Source: Magnetococcales bacterium (GTDB lineage: Bacteria; Pseudomonadota; Magnetococcia; Magnetococcales; JADFWU01). Taken from it: DNA of 49,588 nucleotides. Made by a program: the position numbers and the translations under genes. The notes under the pieces are model-generated. The model did not search any database. It saw only the letters and a program-made list of their open reading frames with translations, and was not told the DNA's origin. Every line of letters starts with the position of its first letter. Position 1 is the first letter of the stretch. Where the stretch lies: NCBI GenBank assembly GCA_015234045.1, contig JADFWU010000021.1, forward strand, positions 1-49,588, read 5' to 3'. Below are positions 15,258-45,121 of this stretch, piece after piece.

Positions 15258-16016
15258 ATGATATCGAAAGAAGAACCTCGGAGTTTGTTTCAAAAAGAAG
15301 AATCTCTCATTGCGCAGTGCGAGCAGACTTTGGATGATTCCGATGCGTCTCGTGATGCGTTGCATGACGGCTTTTCCGCGTTGCTGGTTGGTTATCGTAA
15401 ACTGTTCCGGCAGAGTAAAAAAATGGTTCGGCTCAGTGATCGTCAACAGGCTGAACTGCGAGAGCTGAATGATCTGAAAGACAAGTATCTCAAAGAGGTT
15501 GAAGCGCTTTCAGTGACTGATGGTTTGACTGGCATTCCCAATCGACGTCGGTTTGATCAGTTCCTCGAGTTTGAATGGCGTCGTGCGCATCGGAATGCGA
15601 CCAGTATTGCGGTAATTCTGATGGATATTGATTTTTTTAAGCCATATAACGACAACTACGGCCACGCAGCGGGTGATGAGTGTTTGGTCAAGGTGGCGCA
15701 AAAATTGGCGCATACTGCCAGAAGGACAGCGGATTTGGTCGCTCGATATGGTGGAGAGGAGTTTGTTTGTGTGCTTCCCGAAGCCGACTTGACCCATGCC
15801 AGCATGGTGGCGGAAATGATGCGCTCTGCAATAGAGGGCTTGGCGCTGCCTCATGGACATTCACATGTGACCAATGTAGTCACCATGAGTATGGGGGTGG
15901 CTGCAACGATGCCTGATGGTGTCGTGCGCCCTGAACTATTGGTTCAAAAAGCGGATGCTTGTCTCTATTATGCAAAGAGCAGTGGACGAAATCAGTGTTC
16001 CATTCAACCCGAGTGA
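15258..16016 (+). CDS. siaD: SiaD-type diguanylate cyclase (GGDEF)
   Basis: A 252-aa soluble cyclase that makes c-di-GMP from two GTP. Residues about 10-90 are a coiled-coil helical segment, which in SiaD binds SiaC. The GGDEF domain follows (DGLTGIPNRRRFDQFL start) with the active-site loop GGEEF at 165-169 and an inhibitory I-site RTAD at 156-159, five residues upstream, implying product feedback. The start at 15258 lies 7 bases after siaC. Third gene of a siaB-siaC-siaD operon, with the MORN/FGE lipoprotein gene 14 bases downstream. Confidence 0.9.
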   Translation: MISKEEPRSLFQKEESLIAQCEQTLDDSDASRDALHDGFSALLVGYRKLFRQSKKMVRLSDRQQAELRELNDLKDKYLKEVEALSVTDGLTGIPNRRRFDQFLEFEWRRAHRNATSIAVILMDIDFFKPYNDNYGHAAGDECLVKVAQKLAHTARRTADLVARYGGEEFVCVLPEADLTHASMVAEMMRSAIEGLALPHGHSHVTNVVTMSMGVAATMPDGVVRPELLVQKADACLYYAKSSGRNQCSIQPE

Positions 16017-16030
16017 TAGGTGGTGTCAGA

Positions 16031-17440
16031 ATGAACTCAGGCGTGCGTTTTTTTCTGGCTGTGATGCTCGGGGTGGCTGTGGTTGGCTGTGCCTCTGCAC
16101 CGGAGCCAATTGAAAATCGGATTGTTCGCGGAAGCCGTGTCTATGATGGTGGCATCCAGTATGAAGGTGATCTGGTAGATGGTCGGCGGCATGGTTGGGG
16201 GGTGCAGGTCTGGCCGGATGGTGCCCGCTATGAAGGGATGTTCCGCAACGACCGGCGTACTGGGCGCGGTACGTTTTATTGGCCATCTGGATCACGCTAT
16301 GAGGGGGCGTTTCTTGATGGCCGCCGACATGGTGAGGGGGTCTTTTTTTGGCCGGATGGCACTCGGTTTGAAGGGCAGTATAACCAGGGCGTTAAGCATG
16401 GCACTGGCACCCATTATTCTGCCGAAGAACAGGTTGTGGTGTGTAAAAAAGAGCCTCAACAACGCGCTCAGGTCTGGGAAAATGGTCAGTTGCTCTCCCA
16501 AGTCCTCAATGCGCCTGCGACTTCTATGCCCACTGAGGTGGCTGTGCCCAGTGAGGCGGCAGGGAAGGGGCTGAATAGTAGTGCTTCTCCTATCGGCAAT
16601 TCTTTAGCCGTTGCGCCGGTCTCATCCTCTACAACGTCTGGAGTGATGCGTTCTGCACCACTTCCCAAGGCTGCGCCCGTGCAAAAGTCTATTGCCCAGA
16701 CGGTAACGCAGGCAAATAGCGTTGCAAAAAAGACCGAAAATAAGATGTCGCAGTGGAAGGAGCCTTATACCGGCCTCTCTTTTGTGCGTATTCCTGGTGG
16801 TTGTTTTGAGATGGGCAGTGATGAGGGTGCCGTTTCAGAAAGACCTGTTCATAAGGTGTGCGTAGATGGATTTTGGCTCAGTCGCCATGAAGTGACGCAA
16901 AGTCAATGGCAACGGGTGATGGGTGATAATCCCTCTGGATTCGCCAAAGGTGGGCGGTTTCCGGTAGAGCAGGTGAGTTGGCATCAAGTGCAGGCGTTTA
17001 CGAACGCTTTGACTGCACGTGGTTCAGGCGGGTTTCGTCTGCCAACTGAGGCAGAGTGGGAGTTTGCCTGCCGGGAAGGTGGAAAAAAAGGCCTGACGCA
17101 CTGTGGCTCACGCCGTTTGTCGGAGCAGGTCTGGTATGAAGATAACAGCAATAATGGGCCGCATCCGGTGGGGACGCGCACGCCCAATGCTTTGGGGCTG
17201 TTTGATATGAGTGGCAATGTTTGGGAGTGGGTTTCTGATCGCTATGATGGGCGTTACTATAACGATGCGCCTGAGAAAAACCCTCCCGGACCAGAGCAGG
17301 GGATGGACCGGTTGTTTCGCGGTGGGGCTTGGCTCAGTGAAGCTGCCTTTGTTCGGCCGACACTACGTTATCACATGGCCGCCAGTCGAGGTTACAACCT
17401 GCTTGGGTTCCGGTTGGTTTGGCGTGGTCCCACGCTGTGA
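16031..17440 (+). CDS. MORN-repeat plus formylglycine-generating-enzyme-like lipoprotein
   Basis: A 469-aa predicted lipoprotein (signal peptide ending VVGC). Residues about 35-120 hold four MORN repeats of the type YEGDLVDGRRHGWGV. A Ala/Pro/Ser-rich linker (about 150-235) leads to an FGE/SUMF1-type domain from IPGGCFEMGSDEG through GFRLPTEAEWEFACR and GLFDMSGNVWEWVSDRYDG to LLGFRLVWRG. Such domains outside true formylglycine enzymes often bind ligands or serve as effectors. The reactive Cys pair of genuine FGEs is not evident at the C-terminus, so catalysis is doubtful. It closely follows siaD, suggesting it is a periplasmic part or output of that module. Confidence 0.87.
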   Translation: MNSGVRFFLAVMLGVAVVGCASAPEPIENRIVRGSRVYDGGIQYEGDLVDGRRHGWGVQVWPDGARYEGMFRNDRRTGRGTFYWPSGSRYEGAFLDGRRHGEGVFFWPDGTRFEGQYNQGVKHGTGTHYSAEEQVVVCKKEPQQRAQVWENGQLLSQVLNAPATSMPTEVAVPSEAAGKGLNSSASPIGNSLAVAPVSSSTTSGVMRSAPLPKAAPVQKSIAQTVTQANSVAKKTENKMSQWKEPYTGLSFVRIPGGCFEMGSDEGAVSERPVHKVCVDGFWLSRHEVTQSQWQRVMGDNPSGFAKGGRFPVEQVSWHQVQAFTNALTARGSGGFRLPTEAEWEFACREGGKKGLTHCGSRRLSEQVWYEDNSNNGPHPVGTRTPNALGLFDMSGNVWEWVSDRYDGRYYNDAPEKNPPGPEQGMDRLFRGGAWLSEAAFVRPTLRYHMAASRGYNLLGFRLVWRGPTL

Positions 17441-25167: not shown

Positions 25168-26493
25168 TTACCGAGTTGGAATCAGGTTGAACGCCACTTC
25201 AGTCTCTCTTGCTTCCATTGTAATCCAGCGTCGTTGAGTGCGGTATCCAGGTTTGGATACTTCCACATGATAATTGGTGGGCGGCAGGAGAATACCGGGC
25301 TTATAGGGCGGATGAATGTTGAGGATACGCACCTGCGCCTGTTCCGGCGTGGTCACAACGTTAAGCGGTGATAATATATCAGCTGGCTGAAGGGCAAAAT
25401 CAGTGGAGATAGCAGAATCCTCAACAGAAATCCAACGGCGTTGTGGATGATAACCAACACGGGCGACTTCCACATGGTAACGTCCTTTTGGTAACAAAAT
25501 CCCCTGCACAAACTGCGGTTTGATATTCAAAATACGAATACGGGAATCTGCTGGGTTTACGCTAATATTGACAGGTTGGCGCGAACCATCGGTGGTGTAG
25601 ATATCAACCGCAGCTGTGTTTTCGACAGGTTGAACCTTGAACGGACGATGACCACCGCGCACATGTGCGTTCAATGTGACTTGGAAACTGGTTTTGGCTG
25701 TCCACCGCTCCTCAGTGACTTCAATCTGTTCCACTACACCGTTAGTAGGATTGGTCAGACTATCGACAATATTACGCGCTTTGGGAATCTCTCCAAACCG
25801 ACTGCGTAACTGCTCAGACCAGATTTGAACCGCTTGGGCTCTGGCGTTTCTCATGGCGCGATTGATGCAGTTCCCCAAGGTTTCATCCAGTTCACAAGCT
25901 GAACGTCCTTCTGCATTAACTTCAATAGGTTGTTGGATAAAAGCGTGCAAACGGGCAAGCTGGGCCTTGGCCAGCTGTTTTTTAAGAACCACCGTCTGTG
26001 CAAGCGCATTCTGTAACGCTTTTTCTGTGCTTGCCAACTGCTCCTGATGGCGTGACATGGTTTCCATGAGAGTGGAAAACTGTTTTTGATTAGACTTGAA
26101 TGCCTTCAACGCTGCGGCATAGTCCAAACGTTCTTGCTCAATGGTAATCGTGGGATCTTGCCACATGCTTTCCGTCACAGTACGTAGTGCGTGCCATGTG
26201 GTGTTGCGTTGTTGATCCAGTTGAAAATTCTTATTCTCAGCGTCAGAGGCCTGTTGTTTCAGAAGGTCTAAGGACTCTTGAATATTGAATTTTTTCTGCT
26301 GGAGTGTTTCAATCAAAACCTGTTGTTCTTCAACGGCTTTCTTTATCGTTGACGGGTCTTGGCTTTCAATGGCTAACGCAGGTTGAATGCAGAAAAGCGC
26401 TGTTAAAAACAGCGTAAAAACCATCCATGCAGAAAGGTGACGGTGTACAGGCATAGAGAGAAATAAATGGTGGTGTTGATGTGATTTCAGCAT
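25168..26493 (-). CDS. Exported coiled-coil protein with two PEGA-like repeats
   Basis: A 441-aa predicted periplasmic protein. A signal peptide with a long n-region ends at QPALA (about residue 41). Residues about 50-170 are coiled coil. The C-terminal third has two copies of a PEGA-like unit, each of the form RILNI-P-GILLP-YHVEV-GY-QRRWI (about 320-365 and 400-436). PEGA domains are associated with cell-envelope surface layers. The start has GGAG 10 bases upstream. It follows the AAA-SPOR gene by 44 bases on the same strand, so they probably form one envelope operon. Confidence 0.78.
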   Translation of the reverse strand: MLKSHQHHHLFLSMPVHRHLSAWMVFTLFLTALFCIQPALAIESQDPSTIKKAVEEQQVLIETLQQKKFNIQESLDLLKQQASDAENKNFQLDQQRNTTWHALRTVTESMWQDPTITIEQERLDYAAALKAFKSNQKQFSTLMETMSRHQEQLASTEKALQNALAQTVVLKKQLAKAQLARLHAFIQQPIEVNAEGRSACELDETLGNCINRAMRNARAQAVQIWSEQLRSRFGEIPKARNIVDSLTNPTNGVVEQIEVTEERWTAKTSFQVTLNAHVRGGHRPFKVQPVENTAAVDIYTTDGSRQPVNISVNPADSRIRILNIKPQFVQGILLPKGRYHVEVARVGYHPQRRWISVEDSAISTDFALQPADILSPLNVVTTPEQAQVRILNIHPPYKPGILLPPTNYHVEVSKPGYRTQRRWITMEARETEVAFNLIPTR

Positions 26494-26537
26494 GAGGCAG
26501 CTGCTCCAAAGTCTACATAAACAGACAGGTTTGATTC

Positions 26538-29500
26538 TCAGCCCGCATCGGGCAGTAATTGTTGAATACCTTCAACCCAGCGCACATAGCCATATGAAAA
26601 TAGCGTATGTTCAGGCATTTGACCAAGAATGGATTGTGCTTCGGCATATGAGCCATAATGACCTAACAGTACAGCATATTGATTGTTTCTCAGGCGAACC
26701 AGGTGCATATGCTCAACGCGATCATTCAACCCTCTGTCGCGCAATACTTTTTCAAGTCGTTGAAAATCATTCTTGTTTTTACCCATATACAGCTGAATAG
26801 TAAAACGGTTGGCTGGCAAACGAGACAGCCAACTTTCGCCGGATGAGGGGGGCCAAGGTTTGGTCTCGCTGAGTTGTGTATTCATGGGGGGTGTTTGTTC
26901 AGGTTCAGTTTTTTTTAATATTTTCTGAGCAACTCTGTCAATTGTATCGGGCAGTTTCTTGGCTGTGAGGCGGGGTGGTGTCGTGCTGAGTCCTCCCTCC
27001 AACTCTGCGATCCGCTCACTGAGTGCATCCAACTCGCCGAGTAACTGCGTATCAAGCAGCAGGGAGGATTCATTTCTTGGATTTGATAGGGCGACTGTTC
27101 CGCGTTGACCATAAAGTTGGGGGGTGTCTGTAGTGCTGGTGGTTGACGATGGTGGATTGGGTGTTCGGTAGTTTGTATCTCGATTCACCTGTTGCGTGGA
27201 ACGAAGAGTACTCGGTGCTGACGTTATGGTGTCTTGGAATGTCGGAATATTGTCTTTAATCGAATTGCTTTGTGCATAGCCCGCTTTACTGGTTTCAGCT
27301 TGCTGTCTGGACTGTGCTTGTTCAGTGATGAGTGCTGTTGTGCTGGCAGTTGTGGCTTGATAGCGTGATATGTCCGTTGGCATTGGTTGTTGATATGTCG
27401 TTTGCCAATTCATACCGCCGGACTGGCTGGAATATTCTTGATTGAGATAACCGTGATCCGTTGCTGGACGGCCTATATCTTGTCGATTGGTTTGTTCCAG
27501 TCCTGGATCGGTAAGATGAAAGATCTGGTCCGATTGGTTGGGCGTGTTCAATGAAGAACTGTCTACCTGACCGATATTGTTAAGCTGTTTCTGTCGTGCT
27601 TCCTGTTTTTCTGGCGTTGTTTTTTGTTCAGTCGGCATCTGTTCGGGTGAGGGGTTAGGCGAGAGTTCTGAACCCAGCATACCGAATAGTGCTGAAGTGA
27701 TTTTCGCACTGGCAACATGTGCTTGTTTGAGCATGGCAGAGGGGGATGATGGTGCGTCACCCTCTTCTGCGGTGCGTGAAGCATAGAGCAGGCCGGTTAA
27801 CGTACGGGCATGTTTTTTGATTTGTGCAGAACCTGGACCTTTGCCCAGCACGCTGTGTAGGGCTTTTTCAGAAACGGCTTTAAATTTCTGAGGGCTTTCA
27901 AGAATTTTAAACGCTTTATGAATAACCTTGATGTTGTCTGCTTTGGTCAATTTGGCCAGAATGGGACGGGTTTCTTCCGGTAGCGTTGGAGAGTGAATAA
28001 TATCGTCCATGGCTTGTCGCACCATCCCTTGGGAGATAGTGCGACCCGCTGTTGCCATGGCGGCTAGACCAACCATTTGATCAGGAATGCCTAATCGGCC
28101 CGATTCGAAAGCATCCAAAAGTGTTACAACATCATCCGTGGGCAGGCTGGGAAAACTCTTTGCTGTGATTGTAGAAATACGTGTATTGATTTTGTCAGTA
28201 ACTGTTTCAGGCAGTACCGAAATCATGGCGCTGATTCGCTGGTTCAAACCTTCAGTTACGGCCGCCAATTCTTCTGGTGGTGGGCCATGTTCTGGTGTTA
28301 CTGAGTGAAACAGGCTCAAGGTGCGTTCAAGGAATCCATACTCACGTTCAAAATAGTCCAACACCAATCCGGTAGAGACGGCAATCGTTGCGCTGATGAG
28401 CGCGACAGCAGCCATGGATGGTCTTTTTCGCAAACTTGGTAACAGCCGGCCAATCAACCTGTGTCGCGCTATTTTGCTTGGCAGGGATAACAGCACTTTG
28501 GATGTGTTCAGACCGTGCTGGCGGATGGGATGGCTGTTATCCACAAAAACATTCATAATATTGAATGCGCGCTTTTTATTGCGCGAAGTCGGTTGTGCTC
28601 CGGGCTGGAAAGAGCGATCAGCTTGATCAGAAAAAATACTCGGTTTTCTGTTTGATAAGGAATCGGACTGTTCATCCCATTGAGTGGGTTCGGTACTGCT
28701 CTCTTCTGGCTCTATCTGTGACCGATCAGACGTAGCTGTGGATCGTGTGTTATCTGATGGGTAATCCGTTTGTAAATAGGTTTCCACATAGGAGGGGTGA
28801 TCATCGGGCCGTTCCTCTTCTTGGTCTGGAAATGCATTTTGATCGGTAGTGTAGGTGTGTGCTGTGTTGTGATAAGGCTCTTCAAACGATGTTTCGTCAT
28901 CACTTTCATCTTCCATGTCTTCCGGGTGCTGAGGTGGGCTTCCGGCCACTTGTTCGGTTGTCAGTATCAGTCCATCATCGGAGAAATCGCACTCCTCAAT
29001 GGCCTGGCGCACATGGCGTTTGAACACAAAAAGGCTGTTGTCCGCATATGCGCTTAACAGTGACTTATGCACAATAAGATTGATGCGCCGAAACAGGCCA
29101 TGCGTGGTTCGATGAATCAGTGCATAGCCTGATTTGGAAAAAAGATGATTGCCAAAATAGCCCACTGCCAATAAACGCGAGTGGATATAGTGGATGGTCT
29201 CATCCTGCGTCAATTGTGGCAGATGGAATGTATGCAGTACGCGATCCTGGGTAAAGCCCGTTACCACGTGATCAAGAAGATCATTCAATGACGGTTGTCC
29301 CAGTAGAATCACTTTGGCTAACTTTCTGGATTGGGACTCCATATTGTCCAGAAAGAATATCTGTTCAAGGTGTTCTTTAGAGAGGGTGTGGGCATCGTCA
29401 ATAATGACCAGTACCTGTTCATCATTGTCGTATAGGTGGGAGAGGGCGTTTTTCAGAACATCCGTGCAGACTTGACCTTGGTTCTCTTCAGGGCCAACCC

Positions 29501-29789
29501 CAAGTTGATTGGCAATACCACACAGCAGGCCATTCGGAAAGGCTGTGGCATTGATCAGTTTTACGATACGGCATTCACCTGCCAGGCGGGCATCAAGCAT
29601 CTGCATCATCATGGTTTTTCCAGAGCCCGTTGGGCCGAGTACTTTGATGATGCCTTGCTCTTTCTGCAACGAATAGAGAATCGCCTCCAGGATGCCCTGG
29701 CGTTGACCGCCCTTAAAAAATATCTTTGGATTCGCTGTATTGCTACAGGGCTGTTCGCGTAATCCAAAATGTTGCAGATAGAGGCACAT
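26538..29789 (-). CDS. GspA/ExeA-like AAA ATPase fused to a SPOR domain
   Basis: A 1083-aa inner-membrane protein. The N-terminal ATPase (about 1-270) has Walker A GPTGSGKT (52-59) and Walker B VLVIIDDAH (126-134), as in GspA/ExeA and MshM-type ATPases. A Ser/Glu/Asp-rich linker follows, then one TM near 459-477 (AVALISATIAVSTGLVL), placing the ATPase in the cytoplasm and about 600 residues in the periplasm. The periplasmic part is a helical region, a Gln/Ser/Thr-rich low-complexity linker and a C-terminal SPOR domain (about 990-1072, FTIQLYMG to YGYVRW) that binds denuded peptidoglycan. ExeA-like proteins help pass machines through the wall; a DamX-like septal role is the alternative. Confidence 0.88.
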   Translation of the reverse strand: MCLYLQHFGLREQPCSNTANPKIFFKGGQRQGILEAILYSLQKEQGIIKVLGPTGSGKTMMMQMLDARLAGECRIVKLINATAFPNGLLCGIANQLGVGPEENQGQVCTDVLKNALSHLYDNDEQVLVIIDDAHTLSKEHLEQIFFLDNMESQSRKLAKVILLGQPSLNDLLDHVVTGFTQDRVLHTFHLPQLTQDETIHYIHSRLLAVGYFGNHLFSKSGYALIHRTTHGLFRRINLIVHKSLLSAYADNSLFVFKRHVRQAIEECDFSDDGLILTTEQVAGSPPQHPEDMEDESDDETSFEEPYHNTAHTYTTDQNAFPDQEEERPDDHPSYVETYLQTDYPSDNTRSTATSDRSQIEPEESSTEPTQWDEQSDSLSNRKPSIFSDQADRSFQPGAQPTSRNKKRAFNIMNVFVDNSHPIRQHGLNTSKVLLSLPSKIARHRLIGRLLPSLRKRPSMAAVALISATIAVSTGLVLDYFEREYGFLERTLSLFHSVTPEHGPPPEELAAVTEGLNQRISAMISVLPETVTDKINTRISTITAKSFPSLPTDDVVTLLDAFESGRLGIPDQMVGLAAMATAGRTISQGMVRQAMDDIIHSPTLPEETRPILAKLTKADNIKVIHKAFKILESPQKFKAVSEKALHSVLGKGPGSAQIKKHARTLTGLLYASRTAEEGDAPSSPSAMLKQAHVASAKITSALFGMLGSELSPNPSPEQMPTEQKTTPEKQEARQKQLNNIGQVDSSSLNTPNQSDQIFHLTDPGLEQTNRQDIGRPATDHGYLNQEYSSQSGGMNWQTTYQQPMPTDISRYQATTASTTALITEQAQSRQQAETSKAGYAQSNSIKDNIPTFQDTITSAPSTLRSTQQVNRDTNYRTPNPPSSTTSTTDTPQLYGQRGTVALSNPRNESSLLLDTQLLGELDALSERIAELEGGLSTTPPRLTAKKLPDTIDRVAQKILKKTEPEQTPPMNTQLSETKPWPPSSGESWLSRLPANRFTIQLYMGKNKNDFQRLEKVLRDRGLNDRVEHMHLVRLRNNQYAVLLGHYGSYAEAQSILGQMPEHTLFSYGYVRWVEGIQQLLPDAG

Positions 29790-29838
29790 AGCTTTAGTTT
29801 AGACCAAATCCATAGTTGCTCTGACCATTAATAAAAAT

Positions 29839-30690
29839 CTACCGGTTTAATAAAGTGATCTGACCTAGATAGTGCAAAATCGAATTGCGTCCCCAAAGGC
29901 ACTTAACCCGAAATGAACGTCTGGCCAACATCAGTTCAATGCCGCCCAAATAGGGTGAAACAGTGTCAATCTCATTAAAAAATACAAGTTCACTCTGATC
30001 CAGAATCAAGCCCAACTCAGTAATCAGAAAGCCTTTTTTTGCTGATTTGAAATAAGCGGCATCATAGATGGCCAGAACTTGTTTGGCATTCAACCCCCGC
30101 GCATAGTGACGAATGGCGCGATTGGTTTGAAGATTGAAGCCTGAATCCATCGATGTTAAAAGTCTGACGGTGTCAGTGGGGATATTGATAATATGGGGAT
30201 AGTAGGTTTGGGCTTGCCGAGCCATGCTGCATAGGCGAGAGACGAACAGCACAAACTGCGTGTAGAGTTCTGAGGGGGCTGTGCTCTCTTCATAGAGAAG
30301 ATCTGTCAGAAAACAGACATCTTCAATGGCGTGTTTGCTGTCCATCAGTCGGGAGACCAGTTCAAGCATGGCCATGGCGGGGAAGTAACCGCCTGGAATT
30401 TTGATGAACTCATCCTGGGCAGTCTCAAACAGGGTTATTACCTGGCTTGGATCACTGCCGCGCCGTGTATGCAGCGCTTGAGCAACACGTTGCACCTCGT
30501 TGCCTTGATGATTCCCTTTGCACACCATGGACAGATAGATGCACATCAAAAGCCATTTGAGCTTTTGATCTGTGTAACGATCTGATTGCGTGTGTGGAGG
30601 TGTTTCAGAAATCCCCGGTCTATTGTTGACAGAGGTGTTACGCTCTTCTGATTGTTGAAACGCCTCCCGAACGTCTCTTTTTCCTGACAT
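29839..30690 (-). CDS. Hypothetical protein with possible PH-like C-terminus
   Basis: A 283-aa cytoplasmic protein, not recognised. ATG at 30690 is used; GTG at 30699 is in frame. The polar N-terminus (residues 1-45) is followed by an all-helical region of about 130 residues. The C-terminal part from about 205 (VLAIYDAAYFKSAKKGFLIT and ELGLILDQ, then VFFNEIDTVS) has the strand pattern of a bacterial PH-like domain. It lies 49 bases upstream of the AAA-SPOR gene on the same strand, so it may be a cytoplasmic partner of that ATPase. This is inference from position. Confidence 0.6.
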   Translation of the reverse strand: MSGKRDVREAFQQSEERNTSVNNRPGISETPPHTQSDRYTDQKLKWLLMCIYLSMVCKGNHQGNEVQRVAQALHTRRGSDPSQVITLFETAQDEFIKIPGGYFPAMAMLELVSRLMDSKHAIEDVCFLTDLLYEESTAPSELYTQFVLFVSRLCSMARQAQTYYPHIINIPTDTVRLLTSMDSGFNLQTNRAIRHYARGLNAKQVLAIYDAAYFKSAKKGFLITELGLILDQSELVFFNEIDTVSPYLGGIELMLARRSFRVKCLWGRNSILHYLGQITLLNR

Positions 30691-31255: not shown

Positions 31256-33112
31256 CTATTTGTCTGGGGTTTTGATTGGCAGTTCTATTTCGCATACTTC
31301 AGGGCTTACCAGTTGAATGTCCTGAATAAATGCGTTGGAATTTACAAGTTTGTACTTCATCGCCTGACATTCGAGAAAAACGCCAGGGTTGGGGCAGGAG
31401 AGACAGATTTTCTGGTTCAGATGTTTGGTGACGATATCCTGGACAGCCTCAGCCTTGGACTGAAAGATATGGTTTTGGCCCAATTCTTCACCTAAACCGC
31501 TCTTACGGAGCTTGCTGCACACCTGTTTTTTGACATCGTAGATAAACAGATCGCCGCCGCGTTTTCTCAGTTGCTTGGCGAAATGGAGCAGAAATTCAAC
31601 ACCAGCCACATCCACGAAATGGATTCCCGTGGCAACCACCAGGAAATATTTCTGATCAGGATATCTGGTCATAAGACACTGAAGTGAAGAGCGCACACTG
31701 GGAACCGCACCAAAAAACAGTGATCCATCAATGCGGATAATCTTCAGCTGAGGGCATTCAGGCAGTGAGGAATCTGTGACAAACATCCGGCTTGGGTGAT
31801 GTGGGCTGGGCAAGCGGGAGACGACTTTTGGTGTGGCAGCTTTGCTCAGGTAGTGAACCAGCGACATGATGACACCAACATAGATGGCAAATTCCAGTTC
31901 AACAAACAGTGTGGAAAGACAGGTAGCGACCAATACCAGGGATTCATTGCGACTGGTGCGTAAAATGCTGCGAATGTGTTTCACATCCACCAGGTTATAG
32001 GCCACCATCAAGATCACACCGGCCATGCTTGTGATAGGCAGATGTCCGGCCAAAGGTGCAGCGATCAACACAACTGTCAACAGGGTCAGGGAGGCAAAAA
32101 TCGCGGCAAGTGGTGTTTTCGCACCTGCACGGAAATTAATACCTGAGCGGGTGAAAGAGCCCGATGAAGCATAGGAGGAAAAGAAGCTGCCGACCATGTT
32201 GGAGAGTCCCTGACCGATGAACTCCTGATTACCATTCAACTCCTGGTTGGATCGCAAAGCCACAGAACGGGCGATGGAAACCGCTTCAATGAGCCCAAGC
32301 AGAGCCACAGCAAGCGCACCGGAGGTTAGATCACGCAGCAGGTGGGGGGTCCACGTTGGTGAGGAGAGTGGTGGCAGTGAACCGGGAAAGGCAGCAACCA
32401 TCCGAACACCATGGGCTTCCGCACCCAGGACAGCGGCCAGTCCTGCGCCTGCGACCAAGGTGGTCAACATGTTTGGCCAACGTGGAAACATGTATTGTAA
32501 TAGTGCAGCAAGCCCTAGAGTGAAAAGACCAATACCCAGTTCATAGGGGTTGGTTTCGCCAATACGTAAGGCGAGAGTCATAATGGTGTCGGTAAAGTCC
32601 AATCCACGGGGCAGTGTGATGCCAACCAGGTGTTTCAGTTGGCTGCCGGCAATTAAAACCGCAGCACCGGCGGTAAATCCAACCACAACCGAGTGTGAGA
32701 CAAAGTTCACCAACGTGCCCATTCGGGCCAAACCCATGGCAAGCTGAAACGCGCCCACCATAAAGGTCAACGTTAAAGCCAGTTGGATATAGTGCGCTGA
32801 TCCTGGTTCCGCAATGGGGGCCAGGGTGGAGAATACCATGATCGAAATGGCGGTAGTGGGGCCGGATACCAGATGAAATGAGGAGCCAAATAGCGCGGCA
32901 ATGATGGCGGGTACGATGGCTGTGTAGAGTCCATACTGCGGAGGCAATCCTGCGATAGCAGCAAAGGCCACGCCTTGAGGCAACACGATCATCGCACCGG
33001 TAAGTCCGGCAAACAGGTCACCCAGAAATGTTTTCCGAGTGATGGAGTAAATCCAACGGCGAAATGGAAACCATTCCGCCCAGACTAAACGACAAACAGC
33101 ATTCTCCTGCAT
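31256..33112 (-). CDS. SulP family anion transporter with STAS domain
   Basis: A 618-aa inner-membrane transporter from ATG 33112; an upstream in-frame TTG at 33169 would add 19 residues. Sulfate_transp core with the signature LPQGVAFAAIAGLPPQYGLY, then about 12 membrane segments including SGPTTAISIMVF and a QEFIGQGLSNMVGSFF segment. A cytoplasmic STAS domain follows (PQLKIIRIDGSLFFGAV to HFVDVAGVEFLLHFA). A C-terminal tail of about 60 residues has Cys-rich KICLSCPNPG, unusual for the family. Substrate could be sulfate, bicarbonate or another anion. The alpha-carbonic anhydrase 5 kb away is not co-transcribed. Confidence 0.92.
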   Translation of the reverse strand: MQENAVCRLVWAEWFPFRRWIYSITRKTFLGDLFAGLTGAMIVLPQGVAFAAIAGLPPQYGLYTAIVPAIIAALFGSSFHLVSGPTTAISIMVFSTLAPIAEPGSAHYIQLALTLTFMVGAFQLAMGLARMGTLVNFVSHSVVVGFTAGAAVLIAGSQLKHLVGITLPRGLDFTDTIMTLALRIGETNPYELGIGLFTLGLAALLQYMFPRWPNMLTTLVAGAGLAAVLGAEAHGVRMVAAFPGSLPPLSSPTWTPHLLRDLTSGALAVALLGLIEAVSIARSVALRSNQELNGNQEFIGQGLSNMVGSFFSSYASSGSFTRSGINFRAGAKTPLAAIFASLTLLTVVLIAAPLAGHLPITSMAGVILMVAYNLVDVKHIRSILRTSRNESLVLVATCLSTLFVELEFAIYVGVIMSLVHYLSKAATPKVVSRLPSPHHPSRMFVTDSSLPECPQLKIIRIDGSLFFGAVPSVRSSLQCLMTRYPDQKYFLVVATGIHFVDVAGVEFLLHFAKQLRKRGGDLFIYDVKKQVCSKLRKSGLGEELGQNHIFQSKAEAVQDIVTKHLNQKICLSCPNPGVFLECQAMKYKLVNSNAFIQDIQLVSPEVCEIELPIKTPDK

Positions 33113-33162
33113 AGTATTGAATTCGGCTTCCGTGCTGGTCTGTTTTGAATAAAAATCCAGTG

Positions 33163-33185
33163 GAGACAATGTTCCTTATTGTCTC
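33163..33185 (-). promoter_or_regulatory. Inverted repeat in the sulP leader with an SD-like loop
   Basis: GAGACAAT (33163-33170) and ATTGTCTC (33178-33185) pair perfectly around a 7-base loop that reads AAGGAAC on the sulP strand, an SD-like sequence. It spans the alternative TTG start of sulP. It may be an operator or an mRNA hairpin affecting translation. No further gene is seen in 33113-33410. Confidence 0.4.
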
Positions 33186-43996: not shown

Positions 43997-45121
43997 TCAG
44001 AGTCGGTCCACATTTGTTGTGCCCAGATAGCGATTTTGGATTCTCAACCAGTCATTCGTAGCCAGAATACTCAACAAAACACGATTGACTTGTTCTCGTA
44101 ATGGACTGCCTTCTGGAAAAGCAAATCCATAATCCTGACGGCCAAAAAAACCAGGCAGAATAGTGAATGTGTCGGTAGGGGCTTGATCAATCAGGTACTG
44201 AAGAATCGGTTCGTCATAGACAAATGCATCAAACTGTTTGTGTTGTAGCGCGGGGAGAATCTGATTGCGTTGGTTAATGGTCCGAAAACGAACCAGATGA
44301 TGGCTTAAAAATGATTCACTGCTGGAGTCTTTGATCGTGCCGACGCGCACTTTGTTCAAATCTGCAATGGTTTCGAACTCAATGCTTGAACTGCGTGTTT
44401 CGGTGAGTGCCGTGGTGATGGCCGCAGTGAAGGTCGATATGGTAATGAGTCCTACAAACATCCAAATCAGTGCGAGCAGTCGTCCACCGAATGTGATTGG
44501 TGATTTGTCGCCATAGCCTACCGTTGTCATGGTCACCGCAGACCACCAGAAGCCGGAACCTATCCCTTGCAAAGGGCGTGAATCAAACTGGGCCGCATTG
44601 CGTTTGCGCTCAAAAAGCCAGATCAAAATACCGGTCAGCAATAGTAATACAGTCAATGCCGAGATCGCTTTAATAAACTCCATCGACACCAAACGTTCAA
44701 AGAAATCAATAAGCCCATTGCTTCCCTCTGTGCGAATGGCAACACCATATCCGGTTTGGAAAAATGGGTGTGAGAAGTCGAATTTTTTCTCTCGATTGGC
44801 TGTAATGGTCAATGCCGCTGTGGCAATGTCTATATTTTTCTCGCTTATGTTTTTGATCAGGCCCGTTAAATCTGTTTCAACAAACGTATAGTCCAGATCC
44901 AATTCAGTGGCGATATGTTTCCATAGATCAATGCTGATCCCTTCGTATGACCCATCCGGCAATTGAATAACAAACGGCGGTACACTGTTAATTCCCACTC
45001 GGAGTGGCGGAGTGTTGGTCGATGTTTCAGCCTGAACCGGGAAAACTGTCAGAAATAGCGTGCATCCAATGGATAAAACTGCCATCAGGAAAAGTAGAGT
45101 GTTACGCATTTGACGGATCAT
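43997..45121 (-). CDS. GluR0-like ligand-gated potassium channel
   Basis: A 374-aa protein. A signal peptide (1-31) is followed by half of a periplasmic amino-acid-binding domain (LRVGINSVPPFVI to about 145). A two-TM potassium-channel pore comes next, with TM1 about 152-170, selectivity filter TVGYGD (200-205) and TM2 about 213-235, then the second half of the binding domain (about 250-370). This split layout is that of bacterial ionotropic glutamate receptors such as GluR0. An amino acid would bind outside and open a K+ pore. The start has AGGA 7 bases upstream. Monocistronic. Confidence 0.9.
   Translation of the reverse strand: MIRQMRNTLLFLMAVLSIGCTLFLTVFPVQAETSTNTPPLRVGINSVPPFVIQLPDGSYEGISIDLWKHIATELDLDYTFVETDLTGLIKNISEKNIDIATAALTITANREKKFDFSHPFFQTGYGVAIRTEGSNGLIDFFERLVSMEFIKAISALTVLLLLTGILIWLFERKRNAAQFDSRPLQGIGSGFWWSAVTMTTVGYGDKSPITFGGRLLALIWMFVGLITISTFTAAITTALTETRSSSIEFETIADLNKVRVGTIKDSSSESFLSHHLVRFRTINQRNQILPALQHKQFDAFVYDEPILQYLIDQAPTDTFTILPGFFGRQDYGFAFPEGSPLREQVNRVLLSILATNDWLRIQNRYLGTTNVDRL

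Follow-up and report, generated by a model that had tools for sequence, protein, structure and literature searches.

The ATPase ExeA has a single transmembrane domain and, in the periplasm, a domain that binds peptidoglycan; it is required for the assembly of ExeD (PMC4098917). In Pseudomonas aeruginosa, PA5037, a homologue of DamX that carries a SPOR domain (PMC9712689), has an ATPase domain of the ExeA type, and its loss lowers surface piliation and twitching, PilQ multimers being formed normally without it (PMC6321873). SPOR domains recognise denuded septal glycan (PMC9712689). Proteins that join AAA and SPOR domains, and their link to secretin-dependent pili, are already known from the example of PA5037. 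A literature search gave no report of them from Magnetococcales. The way in which secretins cross the wall and are anchored in it is only partly understood.

The stretch of DNA that we analysed (49,588 nucleotides, referred to as the window) is contig C31 of the draft genome G000 of a Magnetococcales bacterium (3.65 Mb, 117 contigs). Three genes of its minus strand, transcribed in the order 283 aa, 1083 aa and 441 aa, are separated by gaps of 49 and 44 bp, respectively (Table 1). The codon use of all three reading frames resembles that of the neighbouring genes and differs from that of shifted frames, and promoter and terminator scans at the locus gave scores no better than those of shuffles. 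No secretin, GspE, pilin or GspB gene is present at the three-gene locus. Contig C31 as a whole contains no secretin gene, the four secretins of the genome being encoded on C117, C34, C29 and C44, and T2SSB gave no match above the cut-off in the genome (a single weak match of 19.6 bits is on C117). Elsewhere in the window, we observed a gene (43997-45121, minus strand) for a 374-aa protein with SBP_bac_3, Ion_trans_2 and Lig_chan domains, which resembles a bacterial ionotropic glutamate receptor, and another (15959-17440, plus strand) in which MORN repeats are fused to a formylglycine-generating-enzyme-like domain.

Table 1. Genes of the locus and features of the encoded proteins, with positions in the window.
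Feature	Position	Strand	Size or residues	Remarks
SulP anion permease gene	31256..33169	minus		one gene upstream of the AAA-SPOR gene
283-aa protein gene	29839..30690	minus	283 aa from ATG	286 aa from upstream GTG
AAA-TM-SPOR protein gene	26538..29789	minus	1083 aa	ExeA/GspA-type ATPase with SPOR tail
AAA_22 ATPase domain	29274..29663	minus	43-172	E 3e-19
Acidic low-complexity cytoplasmic linker	28416..28964	minus	276-458	missing in relatives
Transmembrane helix	28350..28415	minus	459-480	from hydropathy; sole TM helix
Periplasmic stretch	26814..28349	minus	481-992	no family match
SPOR domain	26613..26813	minus	993-1059	27.4 bits; Pfam gathering score 21
Coiled-coil/Cys-pair/PEGA protein gene	25168..26493	minus	441 aa	secreted
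Coiled coil	25933..26430	minus	~22-187	AlphaFold2 pLDDT >90 over most, up to 97
Cys-pair domain	25594..25932	minus		between coiled coil and PEGA
Two PEGA repeats	25186..25575	minus	~307-370 and ~374-436	Pfam and repeat matches

A preliminary description of the locus had recognised the AAA, transmembrane and SPOR parts in one chain, a very long periplasmic stretch between the last two, a periplasmic coiled-coil/PEGA protein as neighbour and the local absence of secretin, pilin and GspB genes; all of this is confirmed here. The first half of the periplasmic stretch has a mixed composition and the remainder is a linker with a high content of S, T, P, Q, N and G. The acidic stretch that precedes the membrane is also unusually long: the transmembrane helix lies 185 residues past the AAA domain, as compared to 5-50 in most relatives, and the length of both linkers, cytoplasmic and periplasmic, has no counterpart among them. 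At the C-terminus, neither a C39-like nor a PG_binding_1 domain is present; the SPOR domain found in their place would, judging from its homologues, bind denuded glycan.

The Walker A motif of the ATPase (GPTGSGKT) is intact, and its Walker B motif reads IIDDAH. The second acid of Walker B (position E132), which is E in 42 of 47 relatives, is D in the window protein, and position R145, an arginine in 41 of the 47, is F. Overall, the window AAA domain keeps 37 and loses 16 of the 53 conserved positions, defined as those at least 85% uniform among the 47 relatives of its clade (see below); the two changes just mentioned are among the 16. A short-peptide scan of a collection of genome contigs with the 1083-aa protein, which detects close relatives only, gave no match, and PDB sequence searches with this protein and with the 441-aa protein yielded nothing useful.

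AAA-domain matches were found in 47 of the 48 genomes of the order. In its own genome, the window domain has six further relatives, three of them consecutive on C44 and one each on C21, C117 and C29. From the best-scoring matches, 58 loci around AAA genes were retrieved, and their open reading frames were called and labelled by comparison with the secretin, TPR, GspE and GspF proteins of the window's own genome. The tree of 62 AAA domains contains an MshM clade of four members (support 100/97), a pilus-operon clade (100/100) and a third clade of 48 members (80/99). The window domain falls in the third clade, apart from MshM. Its branch is long (1.42) and its placement within the clade is loose; the nearest rows are the secretin/TPR clusters of G005 and of its own genome. 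A secretin gene lies within 5 kb in 23 of the 47 other clade members, and a secretin, MshN-like TPR or GspE gene in 33 of them, both counts being approximate, since the loci are the best-scoring ones and several contigs end nearby. By chance, a secretin gene would be expected within this distance in roughly 1-2% of the cases (our estimate, from about five secretins per 4-Mb genome). Several clade members are solitary, including L083, L096, L098, L105 and L106.

The closest paralogue of the window domain belongs to a 418-aa protein encoded on C44, the two AAA domains being 37% identical. The minus-strand run of genes on C44 codes for a SulP protein, a secreted protein of 1917 aa, three AAA proteins (418, 632 and 648 aa), a secretin (620 aa) and a TPR protein (608 aa); the corresponding run in the window codes for a SulP protein, the 283-aa protein, the AAA-SPOR protein (1083 aa) and the PEGA protein (441 aa). 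The SulP proteins of the two loci share 57-58% identity; no other close SulP pair exists in the genome, where a third relative is 27% identical. Because each of the two close SulP genes is located exactly one gene upstream of an AAA gene, on the same strand, the window locus looks like a duplicated neighbourhood, i.e., a secretin-less offshoot from whose copy the secretin and TPR genes are missing. We also considered that SulP might be a chance neighbour. This was rejected, considering that the genome holds only two close copies and that both are beside AAA genes; we estimate the chance of finding the second at the same position and strand at about one in a thousand, given some five AAA loci and about 3,300 genes. 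At the other retrieved loci, SulP was not seen beside AAA genes.

The C44 cluster deserves a description of its own (L076:3876-18975, L135). It combines a secretin and an MshN-like TPR protein with three consecutive AAA ATPases, and no GspE or pilin gene lies in the stretch. Its 1917-aa secreted protein contains Reprolysin, DUF11, RCC1-repeat, cyclophilin and TSP3 domains. AAA-secretin-TPR clusters whose retrieved stretch contains no GspE gene were also observed in G005 (L085), G015 (L086), G040 (L087) and G046 (L088).

With moderate confidence, we propose that the 1083-aa protein is an ExeA/DamX-like envelope ATPase that couples the cytoplasm to the wall for a secretin or pilus machine, either acting in trans or having been repurposed. 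The protein is more likely to be a stray component of a known secretion or pilus apparatus than to belong to a new wall-remodelling system, because the ATPase family in related bacteria usually adjoins genes for secretin or pilus pores. The ATPase domain would work in the cytoplasm, with the single helix crossing the inner membrane and the long periplasmic tether reaching towards the wall, where the SPOR domain would grip amidase-denuded glycan. Through nucleotide-driven assembly, the cytoplasmic domain might then place a trans-envelope secretin or pilus machine at denuded sites of the wall, or stabilise it there. Since the locus seems to have arisen by duplication and has no secretin of its own, the most likely target of the ATPase is one of the four secretin systems of the genome, on which it would act in trans, that of C44 being the favourite, or else a derived machine. 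Several observations speak against a secretin-linked role: the lack of local secretin, GspE and pilin genes, the divergence of the AAA domain, the existence of solitary clade members, the normal PilQ multimers in the absence of PA5037 (PMC6321873), and the fact that the SPOR-like calls in most relatives are below the Pfam cut-off and come from a profile seeded from the window (see below).

The main rival to this proposal is a DamX-like septal role, in which SPOR would target the protein to denuded septal glycan and the protein would regulate division or wall synthesis, its ATPase part being regulatory. The domain order is indeed the same as in P. aeruginosa PA5037 (PMC9712689, PMC6321873), and denuded septal glycan is what SPOR domains bind (PMC9712689). 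However, the genome encodes a separate, more DamX-like AAA-TM-SPOR protein (572 aa, on C29), which falls far outside the clade of the window protein in a tree that includes no named DamX sequence, and yet another AAA-SPOR protein on C21. Moreover, the clade members adjoin genes for secretins and pili rather than for division. We consider a septal role rather unlikely.

The distribution of wall-binding ends across the order was analysed with a SPOR-like profile that took the SPOR domain of the window protein as its seed and was refined by iteration over the C-termini. A SPOR-like C-terminal domain was found in 36 of the 62 AAA proteins, the window protein included. Among the members scanned, the Pfam SPOR cut-off is passed only by the window protein, L077, L079, L091 and L092, and for this reason the domain is termed SPOR-like in most relatives. 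L080, L081 and L086 are within two bits of the cut-off, L095 gave a weak match (15.2 bits), and the remaining members scanned gave no Pfam SPOR match. Two proteins (L091:6684-10085 and L092:7413-10277), encoded in operons with secretin, TPR, GspE and GspF genes, carry AAA, transmembrane, PG_binding_1 and SPOR parts on one chain and thus unite the ExeA-type and the DamX-type wall-binding ends. L089 and L126 are GspA forms with PG_binding_1, L089 having also a C39-like domain above the cut-off. Therefore, one ATPase family in the order bears either wall-binding end, or both. The gene of the AAA-SPOR protein of C21 (L077:163-6389, 726 aa) is directly preceded by genes for an ABC transporter and an HlyD-like protein, a pair that by eye resembles LapB/LapC of type I secretion.

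The 441-aa protein begins with a signal-like stretch, recognised by eye, and its PEGA match scores 28.6 bits against a Pfam gathering score of 20.8. Within the order it was matched through its PEGA repeats only. A search of 398 genomes of the phylum gave full-length or N-terminal matches in G110, G325, G096, G120, G339 and G347, which rules out an orphan that merely carries common PEGA repeats. The alignment of about 270 columns reaches from the coiled coil through the Cys-pair domain into the first part of PEGA; it includes nine homologues from other Pseudomonadota and shows that the Cys pair is conserved at a spacing of eight to nine residues. In some relatives a formylglycine-generating-enzyme-like domain is added. 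In G347 and G339 the relative lies directly after an mshQ-like gene and before mreB (the gap is 33 bp in G347, whose mshQ-like gene carries DUF6701), in G325 HlyD-type and LapG-like (Peptidase_C93) genes are in its vicinity, and in G040 and G046 a different, related small PEGA protein closes the AAA-secretin-TPR cluster. The neighbourhood of mshQ and the PEGA protein at the end of the G040 and G046 clusters provide a loose link between the PEGA partner and loci for pili or secretins, and the 441-aa protein is a likely periplasmic partner of the ATPase. As an observation in its own right, L138, L139, L140, L142 and L143 appear to form an unnamed family with signal peptide, coiled coil, Cys-pair domain and PEGA, with or without the formylglycine-generating-enzyme domain; in two genomes its gene has an mshQ-like gene on one side and mreB on the other, and in L138 and L140 there are HlyD and LapG-like genes nearby.

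The 283-aa protein is predicted to be cytoplasmic. No homologue was found in the order, in a collection of genome contigs or in plasmids, and no family matched. The preliminary description had suggested a possible PH-like end for this protein, which finds no support here: besides the lack of a family match, the AlphaFold2 model is too poor (pLDDT 43, and about 25 in the C-terminal third) and no PDB match was obtained at E <0.001.

The same description had raised the possibility of an undescribed system for wall remodelling or septal work; more broadly, the three genes might form a new, self-contained envelope machine for wall remodelling or another task. The close same-strand spacing, the unique 283-aa gene, the lack of a local secretin and the very long cytoplasmic and periplasmic linkers, which have no counterpart in relatives, would fit such a machine. 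On the other hand, the three-gene set that this proposal expected to be conserved occurs in none of the 47 other genomes of the order (none of which is from the same family), relatives of two of the proteins are linked to secretin or MSHA-type loci, the ATPase clade is mostly found near secretin, TPR or GspE genes, and the architecture has already been published. As for a type II secretion locus served by the ATPase, none is nearby; the link to secretion appears instead at the level of the clade (the 33 relatives mentioned above) and in the closest paralogue, which lies in the C44 secretin cluster. A wholly new machine is possible, its positive support being limited to the isolation of the locus, and we regard it as improbable. 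Still less probable is a decaying duplicate with little function left, in which the ATPase, once duplicated from a secretin cluster, lost its partner and its conserved residues: the missing secretin and TPR genes, the long branch and the changes E132D and R145F would agree with it, but the 3.25-kb frame is intact with normal codon use, Walker A and SPOR are kept, and both neighbour genes are intact and closely spaced.

Returning to an envelope ATPase that serves a secretin or pilus machine, a broader hypothesis can be advanced, tentatively and with low confidence. Magnetococcales may possess a widespread, undescribed class of secretin machine that uses a TPR protein and SPOR-tailed AAA ATPases, one to three in number, instead of ExeA/ExeB, several of its clusters having no adjacent GspE or pilin gene; the window locus would be derived from this class, would have no secretin and would have recruited a PEGA coiled-coil protein as its periplasmic partner. 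As SPOR marks amidase-processed glycan, an ExeA-type family that uses it would link the placement of secretins or pili to wall turnover or division. The swap of wall-binding ends is open to study in this order, because forms with PG_binding_1, with PG_binding_1 and SPOR, and with SPOR only coexist there. The window locus itself is a diverged, isolated member of the ATPase family.

Compared with the described systems, the AAA part of the window protein has its best NCBIfam match in TIGR03015, the XrtA/PEP-CTERM ATPase (residues 3-268), but the score of 140.7 bits is far under the cut-off of 324.5 and a PEP-CTERM system was rejected. MshM, the ATPase of MSHA biogenesis, belongs to the same AAA family, and MshL, MshN and MshE-like partners adjoin many of the clade relatives; MshM-type proteins here are about 300 aa long, are without SPOR and form a separate clade, which includes the copy of the same genome on C117, so that the tree excludes the window ATPase from MshM. 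ExeA/GspA of Aeromonas type II secretion shares with the window protein the cytoplasmic ATPase, the single transmembrane helix and the periplasmic peptidoglycan-binding end, whereas its wall-binding domain is a different one and ExeB is its partner; in the window protein, SPOR stands in place of PG_binding_1 and C39-like domains, and there is no GspB nearby. PA5037 of P. aeruginosa (PA14_66580) has, like the window protein, an ExeA-like ATPase and a SPOR domain (PMC6321873, PMC9712689). Its gene lies just upstream of pilMNOP, whereas the window gene has neither pilus nor secretin neighbours, and with respect to PA5037, as described in the literature, the window protein has an acidic linker of 183 aa before the transmembrane helix and a much longer periplasmic part.
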